From a virus, in the IMG/VR virus record IMGVR_UViG_3300047287_000112, positions 1-29,617 of that record: a stretch of 29,617 nucleotides of DNA; one strand, written 5' to 3'. Positions 9,596-27,473 of this stretch are shown one piece after another. A program made the position numbers and the translations under genes. The number at the start of each line of letters is the position of its first letter. Positions within the stretch are counted from its first letter, which is position 1. Under the pieces are notes generated by a model, which was not told the DNA's origin, did not search any database, and saw only the letters and a list, made by a program, of their open reading frames with translations.

Positions 9596-12099
9596 TGGCG
9601 GACCTGATCAGCTACACGATCCCCAACTTGATCCAGGGGGTCACGCAGCAGCCGGATGCACAGCGGGATCCAACGCAAGGCGAGATCCAGGTCAATGCCA
9701 TGTCGAGCATTGCCGAGGGGCTGAGGAAGCGGGACAGCAGCCACACGTTGGCCCGGGTGAGTGCCACATCCTTTGGCGATGCCTTCATTCACACGATCCT
9801 GCGGGACAGCACGGAGGAGTACCTGGCGGTCATCACCAAGACCGGCATCCGGGTGTTTGACCTGATGGGTGTTGAGCGGACCGTCGCCGCTCCTGGCGGG
9901 TATGACTACCTGTCGACGGTGACGGATGCCAGGCAGCAGATCCGAGCCGTCACCATCGCGGACTACACGTTTGTCCTGAACACCACCAGGGCCACGGCGA
10001 TGGAAACCGCCCTGGCTCCAGCCATTGCCAGACCCAGCCCCCATGAGGCGCTGATCTGGGTGAGGGCTGCTAACTACGGCCAGTCGTATTCGGTGACGGT
10101 CAACGGCAAGACCGCGACGGTCACGACAGCGGTGGCCCCTGTGATCAGCAATGGCACGACGGTTACTGAGAACCGGATCAGCACTGCTGAAATTGCCAAC
10201 CAAATCAAGACGGGCATCGGCACCAACGCCGGCGTGGTCATCACCCGGTCGGGTTCCGTGTTGTGGTTGCAGTCATCCAGCCCAATCACGATCGCTGCCA
10301 CCGACGCCAGGGCCAACTCCGACATTACGGCGATCCTTGGCAAGGTGCAGGCATTCACCGAGCTGCCCACCATCGCCCCGAAGGGCTACCAGGTGGAGAT
10401 CGTCGGGGACCCAGGCAACAACTTCGATGGGTACTACGTCGAGTTCAGGCCAAAGAGTGGCAATTTTGGGGAAGGCGTCTGGGCTGAGACCGTCAGTCCT
10501 GGCGTCGAGTACAAGGTGAATGCCACGACGATGCCCCACGTCCTGGTTCGTTTGCCGGATGGGACGTTCTGGTTTGGCCCAGCAGCTGGCGCCACGGCTG
10601 GCGGTGTCATCAAGGTGCCGACCTGGGGGCAGCGGACGACTGGTGACTATGTGACGGCACCAGATCCAAGCTTTATCGGCAATCCGATCAATGACGTGTT
10701 CATCTACAAGAACCGCCTGGGTTTTCTGTCAGATGAGAACGTCGTCCTCAGTCGGGTGCGGGAGTTCTTTGAGTTCTTCCCCGAGACCGTCACCACGGTG
10801 CTGGACACCGATCCGATCGACGTGGTGGCGAGCAACAACCGGGTGTCTGTGCTGCGGTATGCGGTGCCGTACCAGGACGAGCTGATTCTGTTCAGCAGTC
10901 AGTACCAGTTCAGGTTCAACGCCGCCGAGACGGTCCTGACGCCCTCCACGGCACAGATCACGGTGCTCACCCAGTTCGATGTGGATGTGAGCGTCAGGCC
11001 CCAGCAGGCCGGCGGGTCGATCATCTTCTGCCAGGCCAATGGTCAGTGGTCACAGTTCCGAGAGTTCAGTGTGCGCGGGTCAGGCACTGCCCTGACAGCT
11101 GACGCCCAGGACCTGACCGGGTACGTGTCGGCCTATGTGCCGGCTGGGATCTTCAAGATGACGGTCAACGACGCAAGCAATTCGATGTTTGCGATCAGTC
11201 AGAGGGATGGTTTCAAGGATCGGATCTATGTCTACAAGTTCTTCTTCCGCAATACCGGCCAGGGCGCCGAGCGCGCCCAGTCGAGTTGGAGCCACTGGGA
11301 GTTCAATGGTGCCGATGAGGTATTGCAGGTGGTCTGCATCCGGGAGAACCTGTACTGCCTGATGCGGTACGGCGATGAGGTGTACCTGGAGGTGATCCCG
11401 GTCATGGATCGAATGTCTGAGGTGGTGGGTGGCCCGTACCCCCTGCTGCTGGATCGTCGGGTGAGCACCACGGTGGCGACGCAGGCTGGGATGCGGATGG
11501 CCAAGGGGGTGTTCAACGCAGTGGCAAACCAGACCACCTGGACGCTGCCCTACACGGCCAGGGCGCTCACCCAGGTGTGGTCGGCTTACAGCTACACCCC
11601 AGGCGCCAAGGTCGGTGGGGTGTTGCTGGGCAGCACCACAACAGGGAACACGGTCACGGCCCGTGGAGACTGGTCGGCAGCTGATGTGTTTGCGGGAGAG
11701 CCGTTCAACTTCCGGTATCGGTTCAGTCGGTTCAAGTTGGTGCGCGACATCGGCGGCGGGAAGGCCGCGGCCAATGCGATTCGCACCCAGGTGCGTCAGG
11801 CCAAGCTCCGCTACCACGAAACCGGGTTCTTCCAAATCAAGGTGATGCCTGAACACCGGGACACCTTCACGTACACGTATGACGGCGCTGTGATCGCTTC
11901 CAGGGGCGCTGTGATCGGATCCCCGAAGACCTACGACCAGGACACCCCCAGGTACTTTGAGGGGGTGTTCAACATTCCGATCATGAGTCGCGGTGAGCGG
12001 TGCATGGTCGAGATCCATAACGACACACCCCACCCGTGCAAGTTCAGCACTTGCGAATGGGTTGGCCTGGCCACCGGCAAGTCGAGGTCGATGCAATGA
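9595..12099 (+). CDS. Tail tubular protein B (nozzle), T7 gp12-like
   Basis: An 834-residue tail nozzle protein; T7 gp12 has 794. It should form the hexameric tip of the short tail to which fibres attach. The N-terminus SYTIPNLIQGVTQQPDAQR and EIQVNAMSSIAEGLRKR (residues about 6-47) is the family signature (IPNL.QGVSQQP…Q...N..S....GL.KRP). FGPAAGATAGGVIKVPTWGQR and FIYKNRLGFLSDENVVLSR (residues about 322-392) are also characteristic. It starts in the stop codon of gp11-like and overlaps the next gene by ATGA, so the tail and internal protein genes form one coupled operon. Confidence 0.95.
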   Translation: MADLISYTIPNLIQGVTQQPDAQRDPTQGEIQVNAMSSIAEGLRKRDSSHTLARVSATSFGDAFIHTILRDSTEEYLAVITKTGIRVFDLMGVERTVAAPGGYDYLSTVTDARQQIRAVTIADYTFVLNTTRATAMETALAPAIARPSPHEALIWVRAANYGQSYSVTVNGKTATVTTAVAPVISNGTTVTENRISTAEIANQIKTGIGTNAGVVITRSGSVLWLQSSSPITIAATDARANSDITAILGKVQAFTELPTIAPKGYQVEIVGDPGNNFDGYYVEFRPKSGNFGEGVWAETVSPGVEYKVNATTMPHVLVRLPDGTFWFGPAAGATAGGVIKVPTWGQRTTGDYVTAPDPSFIGNPINDVFIYKNRLGFLSDENVVLSRVREFFEFFPETVTTVLDTDPIDVVASNNRVSVLRYAVPYQDELILFSSQYQFRFNAAETVLTPSTAQITVLTQFDVDVSVRPQQAGGSIIFCQANGQWSQFREFSVRGSGTALTADAQDLTGYVSAYVPAGIFKMTVNDASNSMFAISQRDGFKDRIYVYKFFFRNTGQGAERAQSSWSHWEFNGADEVLQVVCIRENLYCLMRYGDEVYLEVIPVMDRMSEVVGGPYPLLLDRRVSTTVATQAGMRMAKGVFNAVANQTTWTLPYTARALTQVWSAYSYTPGAKVGGVLLGSTTTGNTVTARGDWSAADVFAGEPFNFRYRFSRFKLVRDIGGGKAAANAIRTQVRQAKLRYHETGFFQIKVMPEHRDTFTYTYDGAVIASRGAVIGSPKTYDQDTPRYFEGVFNIPIMSRGERCMVEIHNDTPHPCKFSTCEWVGLATGKSRSMQ

Positions 12100-12542
12100 G
12101 GTGGGCTGACCCGACCGAGGAGCGTGCTGCCTACATCGCTGGGCGTCTACGCAAGGAGGACGAGTTTGAGGTGTGGCTGAGTCACCGCATGACGCCCTAT
12201 GAGGCGGTGCTCATCAGCCTGGCTGGGAGTGATGTCTGCCGTTGCATCGAGTCAAACGATGGCGAGCCCCTGGGGGTGACTGGGGTCTGTGGTGACCGGA
12301 TCTGGATGCTGGGCACTGATCGTCTGACGGAGAGCAAGCAGAACCGTTGGGAGTTGGTTGTTTGCGGTCGAGAATGGGTTGATCACTGCTTGGAGGTGGT
12401 TGGGGTGCCGATCGGGAATCACGTCTACGCCAAGAACGAGCGGTCTATCCGCTGGTTGCGGCATCTTGGGTTCACGGTTGAGCACCCTGAACCCTTTGGC
12501 CCTAGCGCTGCACTGTTCTGCCCGTTCTGGAGGGAAGTCTGA
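12096..12542 (+). CDS. Internal virion protein, T7 gp13-like with GNAT features
   Basis: A 148-residue protein; T7 gp13 has 138. T7 gp13 is needed for correct assembly of the internal virion proteins. The order of blocks matches: a Cys/Leu segment (YEAVLISLAGSDVCRCIE), PLGVTGVCGDRIWMLGTDRL, then ERSIRWLRHLGFTVEHPEPF near residue 113 onward. The last block is the C-terminal signature of GNAT acetyltransferases (N..SI..L..LGF), so the fold is probably GNAT-like. The acetyl-CoA pyrophosphate loop (R/QxxGxG/A) is not evident, so catalysis is doubtful. It overlaps gp12-like by 4 nt and the next gene by 1 nt. Confidence 0.8.
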   Translation: MRWADPTEERAAYIAGRLRKEDEFEVWLSHRMTPYEAVLISLAGSDVCRCIESNDGEPLGVTGVCGDRIWMLGTDRLTESKQNRWELVVCGREWVDHCLEVVGVPIGNHVYAKNERSIRWLRHLGFTVEHPEPFGPSAALFCPFWREV

Positions 12543-13342
12543 TGGTTGTCATTGACCCGATTTCTCTTGGCGTCGCAGGCGTATCGACGATCTTCAATCT
12601 GTTCGGGGCAAGTGCTCAGAACAACGCCCAGCAGCAGGACTATCTGAACCAGGCGGCATTTCAGAACGCCACCAGCGAGTTCAACCAGTGGCAGGCGGGG
12701 CTGAACGCCAAGACCCAGAACCTGAACAACCAGTATTCCTATTGGCGGGATACGGTCAACTACAACCAGCAGCTGGCTTACACCAACCAGTTGCGGAACT
12801 ACGAGCTTGCCAAGGAGTTGGCTCAGGCGCAGCGAGTGATCGAGGCGCGGATTGGTGCTGGCACCCAGTTCATCATCAACTCCGAGTCGATCAACCAGGC
12901 CTTGCAGGAGCGCGGAATGCAGGAGGCCGTGGCAATGCAGCAGTACAGCTACAGGGCCTTGCAGGCCTCTGCTGCGTACCAGGCATCAGGACAGGAGGGG
13001 AAGACGATGGATCGGTATGTGGCCAACTTCGCCCGTCAGGCAGGGGACTACAACGCCTTGATGCAGATGGGCCAGAAGTTCCAGGCGCGTCAATACAGGC
13101 GCGACCAGTTAGCCGCGATTACGACCTATCTCAATCAGTACAACAGCCAGCAGTTCTATGAGCCGACTCCATACATGGATCCCATCGCACCGTTCCCGCC
13201 ATTGCCGACGATGGTCATGCCGCCGCCGCCGTCCATGACCGGCGCTGCGCCTAGCAGCAGCGTTGGGCTCAATGTCGGCACGGCTCTATTGGGTGGGGTG
13301 AACACCTACCTGGGCACTGCTTCAGCGATCAAGAACCTGTAG
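12542..13342 (+). CDS. Internal virion protein, T7 gp14-like
   Basis: A 266-residue protein (T7 gp14 has 196) with GGAGGG seven bases before ATG 12542. The N-terminus IDPISLGVAGVSTIFNLFGA is a hydrophobic, possibly membrane-inserting segment, followed by a long Gln/Asn/Ala helical region (residues about 27-200) and a Pro-rich tail with PPPPSMTGAAPSSSVGLNVG. In T7, gp14 is ejected and forms the outer-membrane part of the DNA channel. The late GLNVG echoes the GLNI endings of the gp7.3-like proteins. Its TAG stop forms part of a possible promoter-like element before the next gene. Confidence 0.8.
   Translation: MVVIDPISLGVAGVSTIFNLFGASAQNNAQQQDYLNQAAFQNATSEFNQWQAGLNAKTQNLNNQYSYWRDTVNYNQQLAYTNQLRNYELAKELAQAQRVIEARIGAGTQFIINSESINQALQERGMQEAVAMQQYSYRALQASAAYQASGQEGKTMDRYVANFARQAGDYNALMQMGQKFQARQYRRDQLAAITTYLNQYNSQQFYEPTPYMDPIAPFPPLPTMVMPPPPSMTGAAPSSSVGLNVGTALLGGVNTYLGTASAIKNL
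13328..13342 (+). promoter_or_regulatory. Weak promoter-like element before gp15-like gene
   Basis: ATCAAGAACCTGTAG ends in CCTGTAG and is followed by exactly 7 nt (GGCGACC) and ATG 13350, the same spacing as the elements before the tail tube A and tail fibre genes. It matches the recalled Syn5 promoter at 9 of 15. It overlaps the end of the gp14-like gene, so chance is a real possibility. The downstream gene has no Shine-Dalgarno. Confidence 0.3.
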
Positions 13343-13349
13343 GGCGACC

Positions 13350-16316
13350 ATGGCACGAGAACTCCAGCTCCCCGTTGGCCAGCTGAACACAGCAGCCAAG
13401 CCAGTCGACGCCTTTATCGCGCCGATCAACTATCAGGTGGCCCAGCCGGGGCCGCTGGTTCAGCTGCCTGGCGTGCAGGGCGTCAATGTCATCGGAACTG
13501 GCGGCACCACCAATGTGCAGGGCTCTAACAGCTTTGCCGACCTGGCAGAAGCGCTGAGGCCATTCACCAAGGAGTTGGTGCAGGCCACGCAAACAGCTGG
13601 GCTGGCATTTGCCAAGTGGCAAATGGACAAGGGCGAAGCCGAGTTCCTGCAGCAATACCGGACTGCACAGCTGAAGGTGGATGAATCCACCGAGGTGGGG
13701 GAGGTCAATTACGCCCAGGGCGCCCGTGCCGTTGGCGCCAAGGACCCAGGCGCTGGCTCTTTGATGTGGATGCTGAATCCATACCGGGAGATCGGAGCGC
13801 AGCGTGCTCGCAGCCGCCTGGCTGGGCAGGAGATCGAGTATGGGATGCCTTCCTACGTCAATTCTCGCAGCAATGAGATTGACTACACATCCCCGGATCA
13901 GGGTTTTGCAGCGCTGAACAAGATCAGGGCTGAGTACGTCGCTCAGGTGACGGAGAAGTTTGGGGTCAATGAATCGTCTCCTGGTTTCCAGAAGTACGCA
14001 GCCCCTGCAATCGAGAAGGCCAGCGAGAGGGAGGCCGCTCGGATCCAGGAAGACCGGGTCAAGTATTACGACGAGGTGATGCCAAGGCAGCTGACGCAGC
14101 TGCTTCGGAATCAGATGATCCTGGTTTCCATGACTGGGGCGTCATTTGAGCTGGATGGTAAGACTTATACCAGGGGCAAGGATCCAGAGGAGCTGTATTG
14201 GATCGCCGCCGGCATCAAGCTGAACAACATTTCCAGGGACTTCCTGCAGAAAGCAGGACCTGGCGGCATGGCCAGCAAGTGGGCCAGGCAGGCGTATGAA
14301 AGCCTCAAGGCTGAGGCGTACTACAACAATGACCAGACACTGCTCCGCCTTGTCGGTCAGATCCGCTCCGGAGAACCGCTACGCGGGCCTGACGGGAAGC
14401 CAACGAGGGACGCGCAGGGCCAGTCTGTCTATCTGACCTGGGATCAGCTGTATAGCCAGGATTCGATTGATTCCCGGATCAAATACGAGCAGGCCGGGTA
14501 TGCGGCGCGGCAGAACGAAGTCAAGGACTTTGGAGCCAGGTCTGAGGCGGCGATTGGCGATGCCATCCAAGGGATGCCGCCTGGCCCTGATCGGGCTGCG
14601 GCTGCGGCTGCGGCGCTGGATCGGTTCATCAAGGAGGAGACGGCGCGAACTGGCAGGCCGCCTTCTCCGGTTGCCATACAGGAGGCCCGCAGGGCATTCA
14701 AGGAGGCAAGTGATCTGACCAGTGATCTGGTCTTTGAGCAGGATGACCCGGGGGCGCCAACCCGGTACTTCGCCCAGCTTGAGCAGACCTATGGGTCAGA
14801 TTTCAACGCCAAGCGGGAGCGGGAGAAGGTTCAGGCCCTTGCCGCTGGGATGAGGAATCAGGAGGAGGCGAGGCAATTCCAGGCCAGTGCTTTCGCTGCG
14901 ATTGAACGCAAGGAGAAGGAAGTGCAGGACATGAGCGGCTACAAGGCTGCTCGCGACAAGGTCATCAATGACAACGTCAACTCACGGATCCTGCGGAACT
15001 ATCCAGCGAACCCAGCGAACCCAGCCTTTGGCAAGCCAGATCGGGAGGAGTCTGAGCGTCGGCAGCGTGGCGCGTACACCCAGCACGTCAACAACCGGAT
15101 CAAGGAGAAGGAAGCCCAGCTGAAGCGGAAGCTGAACGAGTCAGAGGTGCGTGCTGTCACCCAGCAGGCGATTGACGAGTACGGCAAGAACGACAAGGAC
15201 TCACTGCAGTACCTGTTCCCTGGCAGTCCGGCGTATCCAGACAGCCAGTCTGTGGATCCCTACGGCACGATCAAGCCGGTGGACCTGGGCGCTGACGGCA
15301 AGCCCAAGCCGAATACACCACCCGCTCCGAAGGTGTATTCGATCAACCAGTTGGACGACATCCCCAACCGTGCGGTGGAGCTGCGTCAGTACCGGACCAA
15401 GCCGGTGATGGCGCTGAACTCAATCCGTGATGTGATCTTCAACGCGATTGATGGCAAGGCTCAGAGCGTGAAGTTTGAGCGGGCATGGCGTGATGCTGGG
15501 GCGCCCAACGCGTGGGACTTCCTGATGAAGCAGCTGAAGATGTATCCGAACTACAAGGGTGATGACTGGTCTCCTTCGGAGGAGTACAAGGCCCGGCAGC
15601 GGTTGCTGTCGATGGGTGGCACGGCAAATGCCGAGGTTGCCCGAGCAGCTGTTGGGCAGCAGTTCCCGAACATTGCTGCCATTGCCAGTCAGACCGCTGG
15701 CAGGACGTTCGATGCGATCTTTGGAGTTGCTCCCGCCAGCGCGGAGCCGCGCATTGCAATCCGCCAGGGCGGGGGAGGCGGCCAGGGTGGCGCCGTCCCT
15801 TTTACGGGTAGTGGCGACCTGCGCCCCTTCAACAATGTCTTGGCGTTACTGAGGAGCGGTGAGGGCGGCTGGGATTCCGCCAACCGCGGCATTGCTGGCG
15901 ATACGCCCAGGGGTGTTCCTGGGTTGAGCCGTATGACGCTTGGCCAGTGGAAGGGGCTCCAGGCCAGGGGGTACAACGCCCTGGGTGCCTATCAGTTCAT
16001 TCCCGGCACGTTGAAGCTGGCTCAGCGTGAACTCGGTCTTTCTGACTCCACGGTGATGACTCCTGAGGTGCAGGGCCGTCTTGCTGTGCAGCTGATGGTG
16101 GGTACCAAGCGCCCGCGATTGGCTGCGTACCTGAAGGGCGAGAGCAATGACATTGGCGCGGCGTTGGATGACCTGGCCCTGGAGTGGGCCTCAGTCCACA
16201 CCAGAGGTGGCGGCACGGCCTATCCAACTGTTGGCGGCAATGCTGCATCCATCCCTCGCAGCAGAGCGCATCAGGTCTTGCAGCAAGCCAGGGCTGCATA
16301 CCTAGGCAGGGGATAA
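13350..16316 (+). CDS. Internal virion protein, gp15-like, with C-terminal muramidase domain
   Basis: A 988-residue protein, longer than T7 gp15 (747). Residues 1 to about 800 are mostly helical and charged, with repeated Lys/Glu/Arg helices, as expected for a periplasm-spanning tube protein. A Gly-rich linker (about 806-820) leads to a lysozyme or transglycosylase-like domain (about 825-985): LALLRSGEGGWDSANRG with candidate catalytic Glu838, LGAYQFIPGTLKLAQRELGL, a typical substrate-cleft motif, and a final helix. This domain should open peptidoglycan during DNA ejection. In T7 the transglycosylase is at the N-terminus of gp16, so the activity has moved. The N-terminus is fixed by ATG 13350 after a promoter-like element. 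Confidence 0.85.
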   Translation: MARELQLPVGQLNTAAKPVDAFIAPINYQVAQPGPLVQLPGVQGVNVIGTGGTTNVQGSNSFADLAEALRPFTKELVQATQTAGLAFAKWQMDKGEAEFLQQYRTAQLKVDESTEVGEVNYAQGARAVGAKDPGAGSLMWMLNPYREIGAQRARSRLAGQEIEYGMPSYVNSRSNEIDYTSPDQGFAALNKIRAEYVAQVTEKFGVNESSPGFQKYAAPAIEKASEREAARIQEDRVKYYDEVMPRQLTQLLRNQMILVSMTGASFELDGKTYTRGKDPEELYWIAAGIKLNNISRDFLQKAGPGGMASKWARQAYESLKAEAYYNNDQTLLRLVGQIRSGEPLRGPDGKPTRDAQGQSVYLTWDQLYSQDSIDSRIKYEQAGYAARQNEVKDFGARSEAAIGDAIQGMPPGPDRAAAAAAALDRFIKEETARTGRPPSPVAIQEARRAFKEASDLTSDLVFEQDDPGAPTRYFAQLEQTYGSDFNAKREREKVQALAAGMRNQEEARQFQASAFAAIERKEKEVQDMSGYKAARDKVINDNVNSRILRNYPANPANPAFGKPDREESERRQRGAYTQHVNNRIKEKEAQLKRKLNESEVRAVTQQAIDEYGKNDKDSLQYLFPGSPAYPDSQSVDPYGTIKPVDLGADGKPKPNTPPAPKVYSINQLDDIPNRAVELRQYRTKPVMALNSIRDVIFNAIDGKAQSVKFERAWRDAGAPNAWDFLMKQLKMYPNYKGDDWSPSEEYKARQRLLSMGGTANAEVARAAVGQQFPNIAAIASQTAGRTFDAIFGVAPASAEPRIAIRQGGGGGQGGAVPFTGSGDLRPFNNVLALLRSGEGGWDSANRGIAGDTPRGVPGLSRMTLGQWKGLQARGYNALGAYQFIPGTLKLAQRELGLSDSTVMTPEVQGRLAVQLMVGTKRPRLAAYLKGESNDIGAALDDLALEWASVHTRGGGTAYPTVGGNAASIPRSRAHQVLQQARAAYLGRG

Positions 16317-16378: not shown

Positions 16379-19300
16379 ATGGCCCCTGAGCAGCGGCGGA
16401 CTCGGCGTGGGTTGAGCGCCAACGAATCCAGCCCTGCGGTGACGGCAACCGCTGCCAGGCCCGCCAGACCTGCAGGTGGTGCGAGACCACCTGCCAGGCC
16501 CTGGTGGTGGTACATCACACCAGCTGGTCTGGCCAATGAGGTGAAGTATCGCCAGCGGCAGCTGAAGGAGATCAACAAGGGCACCCAGTACATGGGTCGA
16601 GTCGGCATGTTGCCGATCTACATGGACCCCAAGGGCCGGCTTGGGACTTCTACACCGTCGCAACGAGACATCGTCCGCGGTGCTGCCCAGGTGCCGCTGG
16701 ATGTGGTCAAGCTCGGCACCAACGTGGTGCAGCGGGTTGCCAATGGGAACAAGCCTGCAGACCCTGCCAGCACTCCCGTAGGGCGTGCGGTCACTGCGAC
16801 TGAGCGTGCGCTGAACACGGGGCTGAACCTGCCGCAACCTGAGCAACGGCGGCCAGAGGATCTGTTCTGGCAGCAGATGGGCAACCAGTTCACGACTGGT
16901 GCGCTTGGTGGCGTCGCAGCTGCTCGCCTGATCGGCGCCAATGCCTTCACGCAGGGTGCCTTCCAGAGCCTGAACCCAACGGTGCAGCAGGTATTGCGTT
17001 GGACCGCAGGTATTGGCACTGAGTCATTCATCAGCACAGCGCTGACCGACAACCGTCAGGGCAACCCGGCCAATGCGTTTGGGGAGAACGCCCCGCTGGC
17101 AGTCCAGCCAACGGATGACATGGTGTCGTCCCTGGGTAAATCCCTCCTGCCGAATGCTGCTGTCGAGTTGGCATTTGGTCTGGGTGGTCTTGGCGTTGGC
17201 AAGGGGCTGAACAACGTCACCCGTCGCATCCAGGAAGGCCGTGCTGCTGCCGAGGTGCAGGGCGCCAGGAACTGGGCGCAGGAGAACGGCATCCAGGTGG
17301 ACAACGACGGGGTGAGTGAGTTCACCCCTGAGGTGATGCAGCCTGCTGCAGCACCAGATGCTGCAGCACCAACGCCGAAGGCTGAGGCCACTGCGGCACC
17401 TGCGGCTGAACCTGCAGCCACTGCAGCACCTGCGCCCAAGGCTGAACCGATCAATGCCAAGCAGGCGGAGGAGATGCTGCTTGGCCCCGAGGAGGAGGGT
17501 CCGGTCTATGACCCATCCCTGCCTGAAGTTGACACTGCCATCCAGGCACTGGACCGGTTGGATGACCAGCGACTACAGGAGGCCGCGGCTGTTGCTGGCC
17601 CTGTCCTGCCAGAGCTGGATCGTCACCTGGGGGAGCAGCAAGCCAACTTCCAAGTGCAGGAGGGGTTGAACGCTGAGCTGCTTGGCGGTCCTACGCAGAA
17701 CCTGGCCAATCCGGCAGTGCCGTATGAGGCGCAGTGGCAGCAGCTGCCAAATGACACGTTGCTATCGCTGGCAGCACCACAGAACAGCCCACAGCTGTTT
17801 GAGAAGGTTCAGGGACTGACCGGACGGGAGTTTGAGCAGTTCACCCGTGGTGATGTCCTCGATGGCTTGAAGTCCCTGCGGGAGGAGGGTTTCACGGTGC
17901 TGCCCAACCGCCTGCAGGACGGTGCGGTGGTGATGGATGTGAATGCCATTGCCGTGGATCCGGCTCGCTTCCAGTTCAAGGACAACGTCAACGCCCAGGG
18001 CCAGCAGAAGGGCAACTCCCTGGAGGGTGTGAGCAACTGGAACCCTGATGCGGAAGGTGTCATCCAGACCTGGACTGATGCAGCGGATGGTCAGACCTAT
18101 GTGGTCAATGGCCACAACCGTCTGGCCAAGGCGAAGGAGCTGGGCATCGGGAGCATCCGCACAGAGGAGATCCTGGCCAACACTCCAGAGCAGGCCAGGG
18201 CTGTTGGTGCCATCGCCAACATCTCCTCAGGTGGTGGCACCGCCTTTGACGCGGCCAAGGTGATCCGCGAACTGGGCATTGCCGATCCAGCTGGTCTGGA
18301 AGCCGCTGGCATCCCCCTGCAGTCGGGCCTGGGCGTGCAAGGCCTGGCGCTGAGCAAGTTGCCGGACAACCTGTTCCAGTCAGCGGTCAACGGTGAACTG
18401 CCGCTGGGCAGGGCGTTGGCATTGGGTGGCAGTGGGTTGGATCCCGAGGGGATGACCCGCGTGGTGCAGCTCGCCCAGGGCCGTGACATGACAGAGCGGG
18501 GCTTTACCGAGCTGACCCAGATGGCCAGCACCGCTCCGAAGGTGGAGTCTGATCAGATGGGGTTGTTTGGCCCTGAGGTGATCGACACCACGATCATCAA
18601 GGCCGAACTGGCAGCAAAGGTCAGGGCTGAGCTGACCAGCAACAAGAACCTGTTCAAGAAGGTCGGACGTAAGAAAAACGCAAGCGCCCTGGCGGACAAG
18701 GCAGGAGCTGAGGTCAACACCACCCAGGCACAGGACGCTGCTGGTGTGGCCGAGGCGGTGCTTGGTGAGTTCGACCAGACCAAGTACGCGGCCGAGACAC
18801 CGATCAGTCAGCTGCTGAATGACGGTGCTGCTGAGATCGCGGGTGGCGGGAAGCCTGCTGTGATCGCCAAGCGGATCCTGGCCCAGCTGGAGAAGGCAGC
18901 AGAGACAGCACCACCAACACCCAAGGCACCGGTTGAGGAGCCTGCTGTGGATGCGGGCGGGCTCAACGAGCGCTGGATCAAGAAGTACAGCCAGATGACG
19001 CCTGAAGGCCTGGAGCAGGTCAAGGCAGAAGCTGACAAGTACCTGTTGGGCGAGAAGGCCCTGGCCAACCGTCAGGCCAGGTGGCAGGAGATCCAGGACC
19101 AGGAGGCCAGGGTTGGTCAGTACCTCGATGAGATGCCTGGTTCCAACAGCCCGGCAGAACTGAGTGAGGAGGCGTTCCTGGCCAAGTGGGGTGCAGACGA
19201 GAGCACCCACCCACAGATCCACAGCAACCAGGCCTACAGCAAGACCAAGACCGCCCTGGAGCGCCATGAATGGGCCAAGGCATTCCTGGCCTGGTACGAG

Positions 19301-21964
19301 CAGAACGTCGGCGCAGCACCGCTGTTGCCTGACCAGCGCAATGAACTGAAGAAGGCAGTCATCACCCGGGCCATCCAGAACGGTGAGGTGAGACCCAGCG
19401 AGGCACCGCTGCCGGAGTTGCCCGATCCACCGCGGGATCTGTCAAATCCAGACCTGGCCCTGCAGGACGAGTTGCGTCTGGCGGATCACTACGCCCAACA
19501 GGACGCCATTCAGAAACAGGTGGAGCTGGAAGCCCAACGCAAGGCGATTGGGTATGACGACATGCCGCTGGAGGAGAAGAAGGCCAACGGGATGCTGGAT
19601 ACCTGGCAGCCCTGGCAGCCCAGGGCCATGGAGGACACGGTGGACACCCGTGGCCAGGGCCGGTTCTTCCATGGCTCATCGCAGCCGATCGAGGGAGGCA
19701 AGCCCCTTGGTGTGCAGAGCGGTGACTACTGGACCGAGACCAACATTTTCGGCAACGGGTTCTACGCCACTGAGGACTTCGCCACAGCTGGCAACCAGTA
19801 CACGCAGAAGGGCAAGCGCCAGGCACTGCGGCCTGATGTGCCAGTGGACATCTACGCAGCCAGCGATGAACTGGTGCGGGTTGGTGGGGCAACGCCAGAG
19901 GAGGCCTGGAACCTCACTCGGCGCAGCACGGACATCCCATCACCGGAGCGGCTGAAGGAGATCGCGGCAGCCCTGCGCTCCAAGCAGGACTTCAACGGGC
20001 GCAACGAAATGATTGCTGCCCGGCTGGATGAGCTGGCAGCCAGCCCACCGCAGGCCAAGCAGTTCAATCCTGCCGTTTATGAGGTGGTGGAGAAGGAGCC
20101 TGTCCGGTTCCTCGATGGGGAGCAGTCGATCGGCTGGGCGGACAACACGCCAGAGGCGAAGGCGCTCCGGGGGATGTCTGGCCAGCTGTGGGAGGAGGTC
20201 AAGGGCGAATGGGAGGCCAATGGCTCAATGTCTTACGCCCAGCTGATTGATGAAGCCCGTGGCATCAGCAAGCAGATCGGCTACAGCCGTGCTGACACCA
20301 CAGAGCTGATCGACTCCCTGAACGAGGAGCTGATGGGTCTGGGTTATGGCGGCATGACCCACCAGGGCGGTGTTCGCGCCGGTGGTGGCGGTCGTCTCCA
20401 TGAGGTGAAGATCTACTGGCAGCCGGAGAAGCAGATCGAGCTGAAGCAGGTGGGGGCAGCGGGACCGGATGCACCGGTGCAGTCAGCCGAGGCTCAGGGC
20501 AATGGCCTGACCACCCAGACCGCCGGCACCCTGGATGAACGTACCCAGCTGGCTCGTCAGCAGCTGGAGCAAGCCAAGGCCCAGGGCGATGAGGCAGGTG
20601 CTGCGGCATGGCAGCAGGAGCTCCGGCAGCTGGAACGCAGCCGACTGGGCAATGCCATGGATGCCAAGGCCACCACCCAGCAGGACATGTTCGGGGTGGG
20701 GCAGTACGACACCAGCACGCCGTTGCTGAACCAGCCGCCAGCCCGGCCTCAGGTGGAGATCCCGGCTGAAGCAAGCCGACCCATCACGGAGAAGACATCG
20801 CCTGGTCGCATTGAGGGCGCTGCCGAGCTGGTCATGAAGTGGGTGAACGCGGGGGCGATCACCGTGGACGCTGCACCCATTCGCACCCTTGCTCAGGCCG
20901 TCAAGGTAGTCCGAGCCAAGGGGGCCATCCTCAACTCGGACAAGGTGCCTGGCCTGGACATCGGCAAGGCATGGGACGCCATGGCGATGGGACGCATCAC
21001 CCCAGAGGTCGAGGCGATCTCCAGGGCCTACAAGCAGTTCTATGGCCTGGATGACTCCATGGAATCCGCTGTCCCGGGCTGGGATCAGGCGGATGCTGGC
21101 CCTGCTGTCTGGCGCTTGGATGACGATTCCCCTGGTCCGTTTGAGACGGCGGATGCAGCGCGGACCAGGCGGGAGGACAGGGCGCTGGCCATCATCCATC
21201 GCGTCACTGGGGTGGATGACGGCCTGAGGGTTCGTTTTGAGGACGTTTACAAGGAGAAGATCAAACCCAAGGAATGGGGCGGGGATGGCGTTGAGACCAT
21301 CCGTTCAGGCGGGACCTACAGCCTGACCACTGACACCATGACCATCCGCGGAGTGCTCCAGTCCGGGGAGAGGATGGTCGATGAGACGGCCTTCCATGAG
21401 TCGTGGCACCGGGTTCAGTACCTGGCCTTGTCACCCAAGGAGGCCAAGGTGATGGACACCAACTGGGCACGGCTCAAGACTTCCCTTGGGGCCAACCACG
21501 GCACTGACACGGGGATCGCATACGCTGAGACCCAGGCAGTCGCTTTTCAGCGCTATGCGTCGGCACGTCTCCGAGGGGAAGATCCGATCTATGCGCTACT
21601 TGGCGGCTATCAAGGCAACTTCGGCAAGGTCGAAAAGGTCGTCAACAAGGTCGCAGCAGCTTTCGACCGCGTTATTGATTTCGTTGAGAAGGTTCATAAC
21701 CTGCTTGTTAACAAGACCTTCGACTCGACGAGAGCGATCTTTGAGAGAGGATTCAATGGTGCTCTGAAAGGAGAGGCCAACCTCAACTTTGAGCAACCGG
21801 ATTCCGGGATTCACTACATGCTCCGCCCTGATGGGTGGAAGGCGCAGACATGGGCCAACACCCCAACAGGCGCAGGTAAGGGCGTGACCCTTGATGTGGT
21901 CATGGCTGACTTCGACTCAAAACTTGCTGATCTCAAATCCAAAGCTCTTGCTGGAGGTTGCTGA
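16379..21964 (+). CDS. Giant polyvalent virion protein: ParB, ADP-ribosyltransferase and HExxH regions
   Basis: An 1861-residue multidomain protein in the internal virion protein cassette, probably packaged and ejected. In order: a helical N-terminus; an Ala/Pro linker (about 320-360); a ParB-like region (about 500-630) with VDPARFQ and VVNGHNRLAKAKELG (GHNR at 578-581); an ADP-ribosyltransferase-like region (about 1090-1350) with RFFHGSS (His1098), NIFGNGFYATEDFATAGNQY (from 1122) and GYGGMTHQGG; and a metallopeptidase-like region with AFHESWH (His1673, Glu1674, His1677) and a downstream YAETQAVAFQRYA whose Glu1717 could be the third zinc ligand. These three domain types co-occur in phage 'polyvalent proteins' thought to act on host targets on entry. 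Active-site integrity is judged by eye only. The last about 130 codons look AT-richer. Confidence 0.82.
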   Translation: MAPEQRRTRRGLSANESSPAVTATAARPARPAGGARPPARPWWWYITPAGLANEVKYRQRQLKEINKGTQYMGRVGMLPIYMDPKGRLGTSTPSQRDIVRGAAQVPLDVVKLGTNVVQRVANGNKPADPASTPVGRAVTATERALNTGLNLPQPEQRRPEDLFWQQMGNQFTTGALGGVAAARLIGANAFTQGAFQSLNPTVQQVLRWTAGIGTESFISTALTDNRQGNPANAFGENAPLAVQPTDDMVSSLGKSLLPNAAVELAFGLGGLGVGKGLNNVTRRIQEGRAAAEVQGARNWAQENGIQVDNDGVSEFTPEVMQPAAAPDAAAPTPKAEATAAPAAEPAATAAPAPKAEPINAKQAEEMLLGPEEEGPVYDPSLPEVDTAIQALDRLDDQRLQEAAAVAGPVLPELDRHLGEQQANFQVQEGLNAELLGGPTQNLANPAVPYEAQWQQLPNDTLLSLAAPQNSPQLFEKVQGLTGREFEQFTRGDVLDGLKSLREEGFTVLPNRLQDGAVVMDVNAIAVDPARFQFKDNVNAQGQQKGNSLEGVSNWNPDAEGVIQTWTDAADGQTYVVNGHNRLAKAKELGIGSIRTEEILANTPEQARAVGAIANISSGGGTAFDAAKVIRELGIADPAGLEAAGIPLQSGLGVQGLALSKLPDNLFQSAVNGELPLGRALALGGSGLDPEGMTRVVQLAQGRDMTERGFTELTQMASTAPKVESDQMGLFGPEVIDTTIIKAELAAKVRAELTSNKNLFKKVGRKKNASALADKAGAEVNTTQAQDAAGVAEAVLGEFDQTKYAAETPISQLLNDGAAEIAGGGKPAVIAKRILAQLEKAAETAPPTPKAPVEEPAVDAGGLNERWIKKYSQMTPEGLEQVKAEADKYLLGEKALANRQARWQEIQDQEARVGQYLDEMPGSNSPAELSEEAFLAKWGADESTHPQIHSNQAYSKTKTALERHEWAKAFLAWYEQNVGAAPLLPDQRNELKKAVITRAIQNGEVRPSEAPLPELPDPPRDLSNPDLALQDELRLADHYAQQDAIQKQVELEAQRKAIGYDDMPLEEKKANGMLDTWQPWQPRAMEDTVDTRGQGRFFHGSSQPIEGGKPLGVQSGDYWTETNIFGNGFYATEDFATAGNQYTQKGKRQALRPDVPVDIYAASDELVRVGGATPEEAWNLTRRSTDIPSPERLKEIAAALRSKQDFNGRNEMIAARLDELAASPPQAKQFNPAVYEVVEKEPVRFLDGEQSIGWADNTPEAKALRGMSGQLWEEVKGEWEANGSMSYAQLIDEARGISKQIGYSRADTTELIDSLNEELMGLGYGGMTHQGGVRAGGGGRLHEVKIYWQPEKQIELKQVGAAGPDAPVQSAEAQGNGLTTQTAGTLDERTQLARQQLEQAKAQGDEAGAAAWQQELRQLERSRLGNAMDAKATTQQDMFGVGQYDTSTPLLNQPPARPQVEIPAEASRPITEKTSPGRIEGAAELVMKWVNAGAITVDAAPIRTLAQAVKVVRAKGAILNSDKVPGLDIGKAWDAMAMGRITPEVEAISRAYKQFYGLDDSMESAVPGWDQADAGPAVWRLDDDSPGPFETADAARTRREDRALAIIHRVTGVDDGLRVRFEDVYKEKIKPKEWGGDGVETIRSGGTYSLTTDTMTIRGVLQSGERMVDETAFHESWHRVQYLALSPKEAKVMDTNWARLKTSLGANHGTDTGIAYAETQAVAFQRYASARLRGEDPIYALLGGYQGNFGKVEKVVNKVAAAFDRVIDFVEKVHNLLVNKTFDSTRAIFERGFNGALKGEANLNFEQPDSGIHYMLRPDGWKAQTWANTPTGAGKGVTLDVVMADFDSKLADLKSKALAGGC

Positions 21965-21967
21965 GCC

Positions 21968-24900
21968 ATGTCCAACTGCGAAGACATCTTCAATCAGATC
22001 CGTTCCCTGGAAGCCCAGCGGAAGGGCCTTTTGGATCAGCACACCATGCTGGAAAGCGTGGAGGGTGACCCCAAGCCCGAACGCACCTTCCTGTTCCGCG
22101 GCAAGGACGGCCAGGAGTATGAGGCCAACTTCGATGAGGTGTGGAAGCGGCTGGCCCGTGACCCGTTAGCGCAGCAGGAATGGGCCAATGCCGCTGCAGA
22201 AGCGGGATACAAGCCCGTTGGGTCGGAGGGTCAATTTGAGAACTTCCGCCAGATGGTGGATCAGATGGGCATGGATAACGCCCAGCGGTTGGGTGCCATG
22301 CTCACGGCCATGACGGGTGAGTGGGAGAGGTATCGCCCAGCGGACTTTGATGCGGTCACATCCATCAACCACCGCGATGCGTTCCTGGAGCGTCTGAGCA
22401 CTGCTTTCACTGAGGCTCGGATCAACATTGACAAGGACGCGTTGGGCCAGGCGATCAGCAAGAACGTGGCACCGTTCCTGGGGATCCTGAACAACCAGGC
22501 CAAGCTGGAGGTCTTTGCCAGCCTCACCCGGCGGAATCTGATTGACGCCATGGATGGGCTGAGGGTCCAGATGGCAGAGACGGGTGTGGCGCCCACCCGG
22601 GAAGCCAAGGCTCAGTTCCTGGACAGCTACGCCAAGGCGATCTACGCGCATCGTGCCAAACGCATTGCATCCAGGCGTTCTGGCCAGCTGCTGCAGAACT
22701 ACCAGCGCCTGGTGGATGAGGACCAGGCCGCCCCTGGTTCGTTGTGGGAGGAGACCGGAGCAGAGGCCAAGGCACAGCTCGATCAGCTGGGCGAGGAAGT
22801 GATTGCCATGACCCCGCAGGAGATGGTCAAGGAGGGCAGCCTGGCCAGGCGGGTGGTGGAAGCAACTGACAAGGGCGCTGCTGGCGCCAAGGACATGGAG
22901 GAGTTGATCCAGACCATCAAGACCGAGGGTGTGGATCCGATTGGTGATGGTGATGCCGGGTGGGAAAGCCTGTGGCGTCGTAATGCACGGGCTGCATACA
23001 AGGACTCTGTGTTGTTCAGCCCCCGGACGCAGATCCTGTCGAACTACCTGTCACAGAAGATCGTCTTCCTGGCGGAGGGGTTCAAGCGGTTCTCGGGTGA
23101 TAACGCCTGGCGGCTGACAGAAGGTCGCGCCAGGGGTGCCCAGCTGGATCTGCTGGGCGATGACCCCGAGGCATTGGCTGCTGCCAGGAACCAGCCGGTC
23201 TATGTCAATCCGTTGGGGACGGACTTCTTCCGTGGTGCCCTGAAGGACCAGATCGACGGTGCTCGCATTGCGGTGGAAGCTGGTCTGCGAGCTGAGGCAG
23301 CGATCAAGCAGGGATGGGGTGAATCCATCCGCAAGGGCTTCTTTGAGGCTGAGGCGCCGTTTGCTGGCAACGTCGATTACTTCAACACCAAAGAGGGGCA
23401 GCTCAACCTGGACCAGCAGTACCAGGCTGCCCAGGCAGTGCTGGATGAACCGCTGGATCCCAAGCGGCTGCCATTCCAGCTGAGGGACAAGCTGCACATT
23501 GCCTTGAAGCTGCTGGACAACAGCGCGATCGAGCGTGCAACAGGCAGACGGCTGCCGGTGTATTCGGCATTGCAGGCACTGACCGCTGTGGATCAGCGGG
23601 CTGGTCTGCGGGCATTCATGACCGACCGGGCCAATGACCTGCTGCTGGAACAGGCCACGCTGTACCCGGACCGCACCTTGAAGGAGTGGGGCGATGCGGT
23701 GGATCAACAGCTGCAGGACCAGCTGTACCAAGCCGAACCCAGCCCGCAGAACATCAAGGACGCCAGGGCGCAGTTCGGCCTGGAGGAGGATGACCTGTCA
23801 GATGACGAGATTGCTGCCTGGCTGGCTCAGGAGCGGGTTGGCTTCCCGGTGCTGGCCACAGCTGAGCAGATCAAGTCGAAGGACGTGTCCATTGCCATGC
23901 GGATGCAGCAACGGCAGACGCAAGGCCTGGCTGGTGCTGTGGATCGGGCGTTCACCGGACTGCGTCAGAGCGAACTGGGTGACACGTTGGTGCCGTTCTG
24001 GCAGTCTCCGTACAACCAGACGATCTGGGACATCAGCCTGGCGAACCCACTGAGCCCAGTCACCAAGATCGCCCAGGTGGCGTGGAACCTGCCGCAAGGC
24101 AAGGTGACACCCAAGATGCTTGGTCAGGCCCAGGCCGCAACGGTGGTGTGGCTATCCCTGGCTGGCATGGCGATGACCATGCGGAGCCAGGGCCTGATCG
24201 TGGGTAATGGCCCCCTCGATCCCAACCTGCGGAAGCAGTGGATTCAGCGACTGAATGCGGAAGGCAAGGTGCCGAACAGCATCTTCCGCATCCCGTTCAA
24301 CATGGGTGGCATCCCAGTGCTGAACAGCTTGTTCCTGCTGGTCGACGCGATGGATGTGATCGACCAGGGCAACGTCAGCAAGTACGACCAGCACAACGCC
24401 TTCCAGGGTGTGTTGCAGGTGGGTGCTGGAGCGGTCATGCGGATGCCGGGTTTCCGGCAGGTGCAGATGATCTATGACACCTTTGCCAACGGCAATGAAA
24501 GCGCTGCCATTCGGATGGCGGCATGGGTGACCAATAGCCAGGCCAATGTCCTCTCAGGTGGTGAGCGGTTCATGGAATGGGCTACGGGGACGCAAGCGAC
24601 TGATCTGCAGGCACCACGCACCCGTGGCAGCAGTCAGGACCTGTATGAGTTCGATCAGCTACCCGAGAACCACCCGCTGAAATCCACCTGGAATAAGGTC
24701 CGCAGTTGGGTCTACAACTCCAATCCTGGCGTGTCGCATTGGATGGGCACCCGGGTGAAGGAGACCACCTGGCTGGGTCGTCAGCTGGTCAGGCCTGATG
24801 GAATTTTCCGTGGTGAATGGCCAGTAGGTGTCCCTGGCATCTGGTCATTCAACGGTGGGGAGTACCGGGTGGAGCAGGAGCTTGAGCGCCTGGGGATGCT

Positions 24901-25447
24901 GAACCCACCGACGGCATTGATGACCGGCAAGCTGGATCGGGCTTACATGACCCCTGGCCTGGAGGAGGAGTACAACGCTGCACTCGGCACGGTCAAACCA
25001 CAGCGTCCCTTCTCGCAAGATCCCCGCTGGGGTGGCATTGCCTTGTGGCGTGGCGCTGAGGAGCAGGTGAGCACCTACGGCAACACCGTGCCGGTGCGGA
25101 AGAAGCTTGACCTGACGCGTCTGATTGATCAGGCCACGCAAGGCCGCACGGTTCGGGAGGCCATGAACTGGGTGCTGACCAGTAAGCAGTGGGCCAAGTG
25201 GGAAGCAGACCCAGAGACCACTACCAACCCGAAGGTGCGGGACATGACGGCTGAAATGCGAAAGAACCAGCCAGGGCCGGTGTTGATCCAGCGCATCAAG
25301 GACTACTACGCCGATCTGGCCCAGGGCGAGATCGAGCGGAGCAGCACGACTGATGCGTTGCAGTGGAAGGCAGACATGGATCGAGGTGTCACTGACCTGG
25401 GAACCTTCATGCAAGGCCAGCAGCAGCTCCTCCAGGGCGCGAACTAG
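21968..25447 (+). CDS. Large internal virion protein with LPD38-like region
   Basis: An 1159-residue protein with GGAGG about 10 nt before ATG 21968. It occupies the T7 gp16 slot (last ejection protein before the tail fibre) but has no visible transglycosylase at its N-terminus. The first about 300 residues are helical and charged. Residues about 670-860 contain VPFWQSPYNQTIWDIS, a hydrophobic helix ending in GLIVGNGPLDPNLRKQWIQR (from 742), then GIPVLNSLFLLVDAMDVI. This resembles the membrane-associated LPD38 domain of large polyvalent proteins. It probably forms the inner-membrane part of the ejection channel. Family similarity is recalled, not searched. Confidence 0.75.
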   Translation: MSNCEDIFNQIRSLEAQRKGLLDQHTMLESVEGDPKPERTFLFRGKDGQEYEANFDEVWKRLARDPLAQQEWANAAAEAGYKPVGSEGQFENFRQMVDQMGMDNAQRLGAMLTAMTGEWERYRPADFDAVTSINHRDAFLERLSTAFTEARINIDKDALGQAISKNVAPFLGILNNQAKLEVFASLTRRNLIDAMDGLRVQMAETGVAPTREAKAQFLDSYAKAIYAHRAKRIASRRSGQLLQNYQRLVDEDQAAPGSLWEETGAEAKAQLDQLGEEVIAMTPQEMVKEGSLARRVVEATDKGAAGAKDMEELIQTIKTEGVDPIGDGDAGWESLWRRNARAAYKDSVLFSPRTQILSNYLSQKIVFLAEGFKRFSGDNAWRLTEGRARGAQLDLLGDDPEALAAARNQPVYVNPLGTDFFRGALKDQIDGARIAVEAGLRAEAAIKQGWGESIRKGFFEAEAPFAGNVDYFNTKEGQLNLDQQYQAAQAVLDEPLDPKRLPFQLRDKLHIALKLLDNSAIERATGRRLPVYSALQALTAVDQRAGLRAFMTDRANDLLLEQATLYPDRTLKEWGDAVDQQLQDQLYQAEPSPQNIKDARAQFGLEEDDLSDDEIAAWLAQERVGFPVLATAEQIKSKDVSIAMRMQQRQTQGLAGAVDRAFTGLRQSELGDTLVPFWQSPYNQTIWDISLANPLSPVTKIAQVAWNLPQGKVTPKMLGQAQAATVVWLSLAGMAMTMRSQGLIVGNGPLDPNLRKQWIQRLNAEGKVPNSIFRIPFNMGGIPVLNSLFLLVDAMDVIDQGNVSKYDQHNAFQGVLQVGAGAVMRMPGFRQVQMIYDTFANGNESAAIRMAAWVTNSQANVLSGGERFMEWATGTQATDLQAPRTRGSSQDLYEFDQLPENHPLKSTWNKVRSWVYNSNPGVSHWMGTRVKETTWLGRQLVRPDGIFRGEWPVGVPGIWSFNGGEYRVEQELERLGMLNPPTALMTGKLDRAYMTPGLEEEYNAALGTVKPQRPFSQDPRWGGIALWRGAEEQVSTYGNTVPVRKKLDLTRLIDQATQGRTVREAMNWVLTSKQWAKWEADPETTTNPKVRDMTAEMRKNQPGPVLIQRIKDYYADLAQGEIERSSTTDALQWKADMDRGVTDLGTFMQGQQQLLQGAN

Positions 25448-25508: not shown

Positions 25509-27473
25509 ATGGCAATCCCAACCCCCTACAGCTATCGGCAATACACGGGGGATGGGTTGGCCCGGACGTTCTCCGTCCCCTTCCCGTACATGCAGAGGGC
25601 TCACGTCCATCTGTACCTGGGGCATCAGCGACTGGTTGACGGGGTCGAGTACAGCTGGACCAGTGGCACTGAGCTGCAGCTGACGGTGCCACCCACTGAT
25701 CTGCTGACGGTCAGACGGGTCACACCTGAGGATTCGCAGGTCGTCGCATGGAATGACGGCAGCTACCTGATCGAGGGGGATCTCAATACCTCAGATCGCC
25801 AGTGGCTGTACCTGCTGCAGGAACAACACGACCAGCTGATGCGGTTGCAGTACGGGGTGGGAACTCTCCCTGGTGCTGGCAACCCCCTGGCGACGCTGAC
25901 GTTGTGGAACCGTCTGGCGCGGCACCTGGACACAGCCAAGGGCACTGCTGATGAGGTTGCTTCCACCGTTGATGGGGTCGACCAGAAAGCTGGTGACTGG
26001 GTGGCGGATGACGGTCATGTGGCGACCACCGCGGCGCTGAGCGAACGGTTTGACGTGATCATGTCCGGCACCAAACCGCCGGATCCACCAATCACGGAGC
26101 AGCGCCAGGGCGGCAAGCTCTGGATCGACACGGCCCAGCTGGAGATCAGCTACTGGGATCCGGTGATTCGCGCATGGGTGAACCTGACTGATGCCGGCCC
26201 TGCCGGCCCGCCGGGTGGTGGTGTTGCCAGCGTCACAGGCATCGCGCCAATTCAGGTAGCAGCTACGACCACCGACCCGGTGGTGAGCATTACGCCTGCG
26301 ACGACGACTGCAGCCGGTTCGATGTCGGCGGCGGATAAGACCAAGCTCAATGGCCTGGTCAACTACAGCCTGCCGACTGCCAGCGCCACGGTGCTGGGCG
26401 GCATCCGGGTTGGCAACAACCTGACGATTGATCCGGCGACAGGGATTCTTTCAGGCAACCTGCCTGGGGCTCTGGTCTACAGGGGCATTCGTGATGTGAC
26501 AGCACCTGCGCCTGCATCACCTGCAGTGGGTCACGTCTACATCAACTCCACGCTGGGCGTGGCGGATGCCAGCTGGACTGGCCTGGTGGGAAAGATCCCA
26601 GCCAGTGACCTGTTGCTGTGGGATGGCTTCCGGTGGGGCCATGTCGGCACATCTGGCAACACGTCTTCTGGCGTGACGCTTGTCACTGGTACTGCACCAG
26701 TGCAAGTCGGCGGATCCTTCAATGCACCAGTGATCAGCGTTGATCTGGTTACGCCCAGCACCCAGGGCAGCGGTGGCAGCGATGGTCTGATGACAGCCCA
26801 GGACAAGGAGCGCCTGGACAACATCCCCGATGGGGCTGCTGATGGCACTGTCACCCAGGTCAGTGGATCCGGCCCAGTCAAGGTGGCGACTGGCACCACC
26901 ACTCCGGTGATCAGCATTGACCCTGCAACCACTGCAGCGGTTGGTGTGGTGCAGTTGGCGGATGCAGCGGCAGTCACTGCTGGCACCGTTGGCCGGGTGG
27001 TTGATGCAGCTCAGCTGAAGGCATTGACCCCAACAGCAACAACCCTGGTGCAGGGCCAGGTGCGGTTGGCGAGTCCCGCAGAGGTGGCAGCTGGCACTGA
27101 TGACGCCAAGGCCGTCACATCACTGGGCGTCGCCCAGGGCTATGTGGCGAAGGCCATGGAGCCGTTCATCAAGGCGATCCCGCAGAACGCCCAGACCGCG
27201 GCCTATGCCTTGGTGGCAACTGACAAGGGCAAACACATCTCAATCACCACAGGAGGGGTGACGGTGCCTGCTTCTGTCTTTGCTGTGGGTGATGTGGTTG
27301 TCATCTACAACAACAGCACAGCCAGTCAGACCATTAAACAAGGAGCTGGAACCACTCTCCGGTTGGGTGGCACGGCGACCACAGGTGATCGCACCTTGGC
27401 TCAGCGTGGTCTGGCCACAATGTTGTGTGTTGGCACCAATGAGTTTGTTGTCAGCGGTGGTGGGTTGACATGA
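25509..27473 (+). CDS. Tail fibre protein, T7 gp17-like N-terminus
   Basis: A 654-residue fibre. Residues 1 to about 150 are the T7 gp17-type tail-attachment domain (YRQYTGDGLARTFSVPFPYM, VDGVEYSWTS, a helical SDRQWLYLLQEQHDQLMR stretch). The shaft has three diverged repeats of the form VTxVTGxxPxxVxxxxxxPVxSI, starting near residues 238, 393 and 455; the first two lead to MSAADKTKLNGL and MTAQDKERLDNI. The C-terminus KHISITTGGVTVPASVFAVG through VSGGGLT is a small beta domain common in phage fibres. It attaches to the tail nozzle and contacts the host surface. There is no Shine-Dalgarno; a promoter-like element ends 7 nt before the start. It overlaps the next gene by ATGA. Confidence 0.93.
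   Translation: MAIPTPYSYRQYTGDGLARTFSVPFPYMQRAHVHLYLGHQRLVDGVEYSWTSGTELQLTVPPTDLLTVRRVTPEDSQVVAWNDGSYLIEGDLNTSDRQWLYLLQEQHDQLMRLQYGVGTLPGAGNPLATLTLWNRLARHLDTAKGTADEVASTVDGVDQKAGDWVADDGHVATTAALSERFDVIMSGTKPPDPPITEQRQGGKLWIDTAQLEISYWDPVIRAWVNLTDAGPAGPPGGGVASVTGIAPIQVAATTTDPVVSITPATTTAAGSMSAADKTKLNGLVNYSLPTASATVLGGIRVGNNLTIDPATGILSGNLPGALVYRGIRDVTAPAPASPAVGHVYINSTLGVADASWTGLVGKIPASDLLLWDGFRWGHVGTSGNTSSGVTLVTGTAPVQVGGSFNAPVISVDLVTPSTQGSGGSDGLMTAQDKERLDNIPDGAADGTVTQVSGSGPVKVATGTTTPVISIDPATTAAVGVVQLADAAAVTAGTVGRVVDAAQLKALTPTATTLVQGQVRLASPAEVAAGTDDAKAVTSLGVAQGYVAKAMEPFIKAIPQNAQTAAYALVATDKGKHISITTGGVTVPASVFAVGDVVVIYNNSTASQTIKQGAGTTLRLGGTATTGDRTLAQRGLATMLCVGTNEFVVSGGGLT

Follow-up and report, generated by a model that had tools for sequence, protein, structure and literature searches.

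The question raised by this locus is what kind of protein is encoded by a very large ORF lying within a T7-type ejection cassette, and how its product might leave the virion. The window (the whole stretch of DNA analyzed here, a 29,617-bp contig from an uncultured virus) carries its late genes in T7-type order, i.e., terminase, portal, scaffold, capsid, gp11, gp12, gp13-like, gp14-like, gp15-like, the large ORF, gp16-like, and fiber. The window features given with positions below are on the plus strand. The ORF, here designated POLYV, extends intact from position 16379 (ATG) to 21964 (TGA) with no internal stops and encodes 1,861 amino acids, including a single cysteine at residue 1861. It is preceded by genes for a gp13-like protein (positions 12036 to 12542; Pfam T7_Gp13, E = 5.5e-6; phrog_308) and for two cysteine-free products, a gp14-like protein (12542 to 13342) and the 988-residue gp15-like protein gp15L (13350 to 16316). 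Downstream lie the gp16-like gene gp16L (21968 to 25447), encoding 1,159 residues with one cysteine at residue 4, and the tail fiber gene that ends the cassette (25509 to 27473; Pfam Phage_T7_tail, E = 3e-22).

A sequence-only reading had described a single 1,861-residue frame with ParB, ADP-ribosyltransferase (ART), and HExxH motifs inside a T7-type ejection cassette. Both the ORF and the motif positions were verified. The cassette assignment is borne out by the gp11-gp12-gp13-gp14L-gp15L-POLYV-gp16L-fiber order, common to about 60 uncultured podovirus loci, and by the protein in the same slot of Anabaena phage A-4L, which is a pre-ejectosome chain (see below). The suggestion that POLYV replaces part of gp16 had to be abandoned, a separate gp16-like gene starting at 21968. 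The earlier interpretation is partly supported: POLYV is a polyvalent-type protein of the ejection cassette, without a match to curated PolyVal families, and not a gp16 replacement.

The neighboring genes showed some features of their own. The end stretch of gp15L (residues ~833 to 984) matches two PHROG families of unknown function, and the gp15-like homologue of locus L003 resembles, as judged by eye, an SGEGG...GAYQF lysozyme/transglycosylase, a function that in T7 resides in gp16. Locus L030 has, between gp15L and POLYV, an unassigned 999-amino-acid ORF with nine cysteines.

Standard libraries provided no name for the POLYV gene. Whole-protein sequence searches of Pfam and PDB gave nothing usable, and PDB profile searches returned chance matches alone, whether started from the alignments of ART, zincin, gp15L, or gp16L or from that of the C-terminal part of the giants. 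The PHROG family phrog_21, labeled “portal protein,” matched residues 519 to 799, i.e., the ParB stretch, with an E value of 4e-40; the alignment covers no more of phrog_21 than positions 1019 to 1305 of 1,362, its C-terminal extension, and the “portal” label would therefore mislead automatic annotation of POLYV.

The first module is that of ParB. Residues 491 to 859, modeled by AlphaFold2 with 42 relatives aligned (pLDDT 81.6), matched Noc, ParB, and KorB across the N-domain and the helix-turn-helix (HTH) (Foldseek E = 2e-5, probability 1.0), and VIA Z scores were 10.9 against ParB with CTPgammaS and ~7 against sulfiredoxin. The modeled ParB N-domain (CTPase-type fold) and HTH DNA-binding domain span residues ~514 to 719 (positions 17918 to 18535). 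At the ParB motif 2 position lies GHNR (residues 578 to 581; 18110 to 18121), overlapping a VNGHN string invariant in the 42 aligned relatives. The model supports the presence in POLYV of a fold of the ParB/Srx superfamily, motif 2 included, together with its DNA-binding domain. The ddrB-ParB family (PF18763) gave no profile match at an E value of 10.

An ART-fold domain was recognized at residues ~1090 to 1366 (positions 19646 to 20476), with homologues at E values of 7e-24 to 2e-32. It carries FFHG with His1098, GNGFYATED at residues 1125 to 1133 (Tyr1129), and GYGGMTHQGG at residues 1322 to 1331; the FFHG, the Tyr, and GYGGxTHxGG were invariant among five ART-region relatives. An ~80-residue insertion in the domain (19814 to 20059) is, by alignment, absent or much shorter in the four closest ART relatives. 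In the AlphaFold2 model of residues 1081 to 1861 (pLDDT 71.9, pTM 0.45), the best structural match of the ART region was to residues 1418 to 1611 of chain B of PDB entry 9K3A, itself carrying HGT...GSGTYF motifs, with a VIA Z of 12.7 over 173 residues. Further matches were weak when taken alone (a diphtheria toxin homologue, Z 6.8; MbcT, 6.6; the anti-CRISPR 6kyf, 6.0). The ADP-ribosyltransferase fold is thus indicated by structural similarity. ART-PolyVal (PF18760, HYD class) had no profile match at an E value of 10 in the window and five related records, and gave subthreshold matches in some relatives. Of the His, Tyr, and Asp that this class has on strands 1, 2, and 5, respectively, His1098 and Tyr1129 are conserved. 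POLYV and its subfamily have GYGG where the other ART lineages of the same slot have GYDG, which makes the presence of the class-defining Asp doubtful for POLYV; with that Asp replaced by Gly, ART activity cannot be assumed.

Searching by peptide pattern with just the ART region yielded no relatives, and those used here were reached through the ParB profile. Another, broader ART profile (ART2) was set aside, as a conserved linker had contaminated it. A second ART lineage (HGT...GDGVYMA...GYDG, with subthreshold Pfam PARP matches) occupies the same slot in the POLYV genes of L033, L060, L061, and L119, and ART domains therefore seem to have been acquired there more than once.

The third module, a zincin-type metallopeptidase region at residues ~1579 to 1800 (positions 21113 to 21778), had profile matches in about 35 relatives. 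Among 29 aligned relatives, the sole four invariant columns were the H, E, and H of HESWH (residues 1673 to 1677; 21395 to 21409) and Glu1717 (21527 to 21529), a candidate third metal ligand. The HExxH plus downstream Glu of lethal factor/PPEP-type zincins is hence present in all 29 as a sequence motif. VIA matches included many anthrax lethal factor entries (Z ~7), PPEP-3 (6.8), and IrrE (5.5), all within the background range of unrelated matches, and MPTase-PolyVal (PF18818) gave no profile match at an E value of 10. The zincin fold is more weakly supported than the other two, mainly by the invariant HExxH...E; we accept it on account of these residues and of the connection made, by another route, between phage MPTase domains and lethal factor by Iyer et al. 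(PMC5512222). Of the three folds anticipated from the letters, each found a structural match, that of the zincin being weak on its own. That the underlying motifs exceed chance is upheld by the invariance among relatives of VNGHN, HExxH with Glu1717, and the ART residues.

A single POLYV chain consequently unites at least two domains of unlike biochemistry (ParB and ART folds, together with the zincin-type motif set) and is encoded among virion/late genes, two of the hallmarks of polyvalent proteins; a further one, delivery into the host at infection, would apply by analogy with the A-4L chains of 9K3A. Its relatives share these domains unevenly. A ParB-region profile identified 246 IMG/VR relatives, 80 of which were retrieved, while a gp16L profile recovered 77 loci. 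The N-terminal and ParB regions are conserved and the remainder is mosaic: the zincin may be present or missing, the ART may precede it, follow it, or be absent, and some members lack ParB. The nearest relative (L003, 74% identical) has no ART and retains ParB and HESWH, and the nearest named genome, the uncultured Nohivirus S31C1, encodes a 1,484-residue homologue also devoid of ART. The cultured freshwater Synechococcus phage S-SRP02 has homologues of gp15L (E = 4e-81) and gp16L (E = 7e-66) and, between them, a 1,016-residue POLYV homologue with a terminal cysteine and no ParB, zincin, or ART match (gp46, annotated “chromosome segregation ATPase-like”; L258:15091-18141). The mosaic domains and the S-SRP02 form indicate that POLYV is a chassis with exchangeable cargo. 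ParB relatives L064 to L086 come from non-T7-type phages and contain four-cysteine clusters (e.g., residues 135, 141, 145, and 152), in contrast to the cysteine-poor podovirus forms, suggesting that they may be zinc-binding modules.

What may link this variable cargo to the cassette is a pair of cysteines, a feature absent from the observations of the sequence-only reading and found in the follow-up. The codon of Cys1861, the last residue and only cysteine of POLYV, is at 21959 to 21961, and that of Cys4, the only cysteine of gp16L, at 21977 to 21979. In all 76 distinct POLYV-gp16L pairs, POLYV has a cysteine within its last four residues (the sole one in 72/76, with extra cysteines in the other four proteins) and gp16L has exactly one, near the N terminus. 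Two loci, L031 and L032, have gp16L starting ~40 residues earlier, and there the lone cysteine is kept at residue 46 in its usual N-C context. When pairs were reduced to lineages with gp16L identity below 40%, both cysteines were kept in 13/13, 12 of them without any other cysteine, against a chance expectation of ~1e-4 per lineage on the assumption of one randomly placed cysteine per chain. The POLYV/gp16L codons are TGC/TGC in 61 pairs, TGC/TGT in 8, TGT/TGC in 6, and TGT/TGT in 1; this independent variation points to selection on the amino acid. The Gly-Gly preceding Cys1861, in contrast, needs no protein-level explanation, as its codons hold GGAGG (21953 to 21957), a Shine-Dalgarno-like sequence for gp16L. 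Nor is the pair tied to the effector domains, S-SRP02 having it without any of them. Cysteines or disulfides are unmentioned in an ejection protein review (PMC8954989) and in the PhiM1 ejectosome paper (PMC11440229), and the terminal pair is, as far as a limited literature search shows, unreported.

The same arrangement is found in a separate group of phages. Phage A-4L (Saffermanviridae) encodes in the same order an internal protein, the 1,717-residue A4L_27, and the 1,114-residue A4L_26, whose lone cysteines are Cys1715 and Cys5, respectively. The pair recurs in Pf-WMP3, Pf-WMP4, LPP-1, Lbo240-yong1, TR020, and CHP58, making seven A-4L-type phages in all, with an extra cysteine in the downstream protein of TR020 only. 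A4L_27 and A4L_26 are chains B and A, respectively, of 9K3A, titled cyanophage A4 pre-ejectosome (Hou et al. 2025, doi 10.1073/pnas.2423403122, cited in PMC12810830). By hhalign, the A-4L-group chains showed no relation to POLYV or gp16L beyond the ART region (P = 1.5e-4). Judging from these sequences, the cysteine pair would be either very old or have arisen twice, the A-4L group possibly representing an independent case.

Single-ORF relatives provide the counterpart. In P-SCSP1u-type phages, the slot is occupied by a gene for ~2,100 to 2,900 amino acids with no separate gp16L gene downstream. No relation emerged when hhalign compared gp16L with the P-SCSP1u sequence by itself; with 31 giants aligned, their C-terminal part proved homologous to that of gp16L (probability 97.8, P = 9e-13, 390 columns). 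Forty of 45 distinct complete giants are cysteine free and five have one or two internal cysteines; none of the 45 has a cysteine within 10 residues of either end. The P-SCSP1u giant itself (L004:16627-24318; 2,563 amino acids) combines ParB with an HESFH zincin motif, an ART-like region at ~1540 to 1680, and a gp16L-like C terminus and is devoid of cysteine. In the ParB tree, one change (support 100/95) divides split from single-ORF forms, so that the contrast between fused forms without the cysteines and split forms counts as a single event; the “split” label had wrongly been given to L006 and L082 as well, whose genes lie outside the POLYV cassette, and the result was the same without them. 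In T7, P-SSP7, phiKMV, and HTVC019P, all eight gp15/gp16-type proteins are cysteine free, and the tail tube proteins have four to nine. The gp14-type proteins mostly have one cysteine in T7 (L248) and the single-ORF clade and mostly none in the split clade.

The reading that we favor, with a probability of roughly 0.6, is that POLYV is a capsid-packaged, ejected cargo whose effector domains are interchangeable and which is joined by a covalent bond to the gp16-like channel protein. From the conservation of the two residues we infer a disulfide between POLYV Cys1861 and gp16L Cys4, and, by analogy with the A-4L chains of 9K3A, POLYV would probably be ejected ahead of the phage DNA. Both proteins would be packaged in the internal core; upon lysis, as virions meet oxygen, the disulfide would form, and the two chains would exit the head as one chain-like unit, much as the fused relatives would by virtue of a peptide bond. 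With the chains otherwise cysteine free, no wrong crosslink would impede their unfolding in the narrow channel. The reducing host cytoplasm would then open the bond and release the cargo, whose ParB/HTH could engage DNA, whose ART could modify a host target, and whose zincin could process the chain or a host protein. In the fused clade, the peptide bond would perhaps be cut by the zincin, a type of cleavage that has been proposed for polyvalent proteins (PMC5512222). A plausible conjecture is that the POLYV domains blunt host defense. We extend the proposal more tentatively, at somewhat less than an even chance, to many cyanobacterial and other aquatic podoviruses: a redox-breakable disulfide would join the last residue of a giant multidomain effector to the N-terminal residues of its channel partner. 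The two would thus leave the capsid as a single chain and separate once inside the reducing cytoplasm of the host, relatives attaining the same continuity by gene fusion.

POLYV could instead be an ordinary polyvalent protein packaged beside gp16L, the terminal cysteines serving for homotypic ring crosslinks, metal binding, or core assembly with no bond between the two proteins. Polyvalent proteins that carry ParB, ART, and MPTase domains have indeed been described for phages (PMC5512222), and one cysteine per chain could pair with its own copy in a ring. Homotypic bonds, however, would not lead one to expect fused forms lacking both cysteines. The abutting-end positions also recur in two groups whose chains have no detectable homology, and we consider this explanation rather unlikely. 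Another view would make POLYV mainly a structural core scaffold, with ParB, ART, and zincin as degenerate, noncatalytic blocks that take up capsid space and bind the DNA packaged there. It draws on S-SRP02, which manages with a 1,016-residue version free of detectable effector domains, and on the GYGG of the POLYV ART in place of GYDG. The invariant HExxH and Glu in 29 relatives, the conserved ART His/Tyr, and the ParB GHN nevertheless suggest working active sites, and ART and zincin are gained or lost between close relatives; a scaffold role of this kind seems to us unlikely.

The Gly-Gly-Cys end and Asn-Cys start might also be by-products of nucleic acid signals, either a Shine-Dalgarno sequence or translational bypass from Cys codon to Cys codon yielding a fusion. 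GGAGG does lie within the Gly codons ahead of gp16L, the Cys codons of the two genes are usually 13 to 23 nt apart, and relatives encode a true fusion. A Shine-Dalgarno sequence accounts for Gly-Gly, yet it requires no Cys codon and leaves the loss of all other cysteines unexplained. Bypass had been prompted by the identical codons near the junction and was rejected for codon mismatch: of the 15 TGT-containing pairs, 14 have a landing codon unlike the take-off codon. Besides, one to three sense codons follow the cysteine in 24/76 pairs, and two pairs have their Cys codons 143 nt apart. An origin in nucleic acid signals is accordingly very improbable.

The case of POLYV joins two questions, how very large proteins of podophages pass the narrow portal and what couples an ejected effector to its channel and later releases it. 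The signature formed by the two cysteines is widespread as well as simple, and it can be tested in phages in culture (A-4L, Pf-WMP4, LPP-1, and S-SRP02), both A-4L partners being present in one deposited structure. Cysteine depletion constitutes a sequence rule that may help recognize ejected proteins, and the unannotated giant genes of aquatic cyanopodoviruses are supplied with functional hypotheses.

Compared with known systems, POLYV and gp16L share with T7 gp15/gp16 the genomic position and a likely trans-envelope channel role, but the T7 pair has no cysteine and no POLYV counterpart between its members; hhalign of 41 gp16L sequences against the single T7 gp16 sequence gave a probability below 1%. 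T4 Alt (ART) and P1 DdrB (ParB and MPTase) are, according to published accounts, packaged in the head and delivered with DNA (PMC5512222, PMC12810830), as is proposed for the cargo here. They belong, unlike POLYV, to other virion types. To our knowledge, neither is coupled to an ejection channel protein. With polyvalent proteins (Iyer et al. 2017, PMC5512222), POLYV has in common a long polypeptide, unrelated enzymatic domains (ParB, ART, and zincin), a location beside virion genes, and mosaicism. It departs from them in having no Pfam PolyVal ART, ParB, or MPTase match, an HTH with its ParB, a different third ART residue, and a terminal cysteine that has its partner in the adjacent protein, a feature which the parts of that source used here do not report. 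The P-SCSP1u-type giants occupy the same slot with ParB and zincin, frequently joined by an ART, and have a C terminus homologous to gp16L; they differ in being one polypeptide, mostly cysteine free and annotated as hypothetical, and genes of this slot have been called internal virion proteins by size and position only (PMC9860041). The A4L_27/A4L_26 chains of 9K3A belong to another phage family, have no detectable homology to POLYV and gp16L outside the ART, and lack HExxH, whereas gene order, the ART-like region (Z 12.7), and one cysteine at each abutting end are common to both systems.
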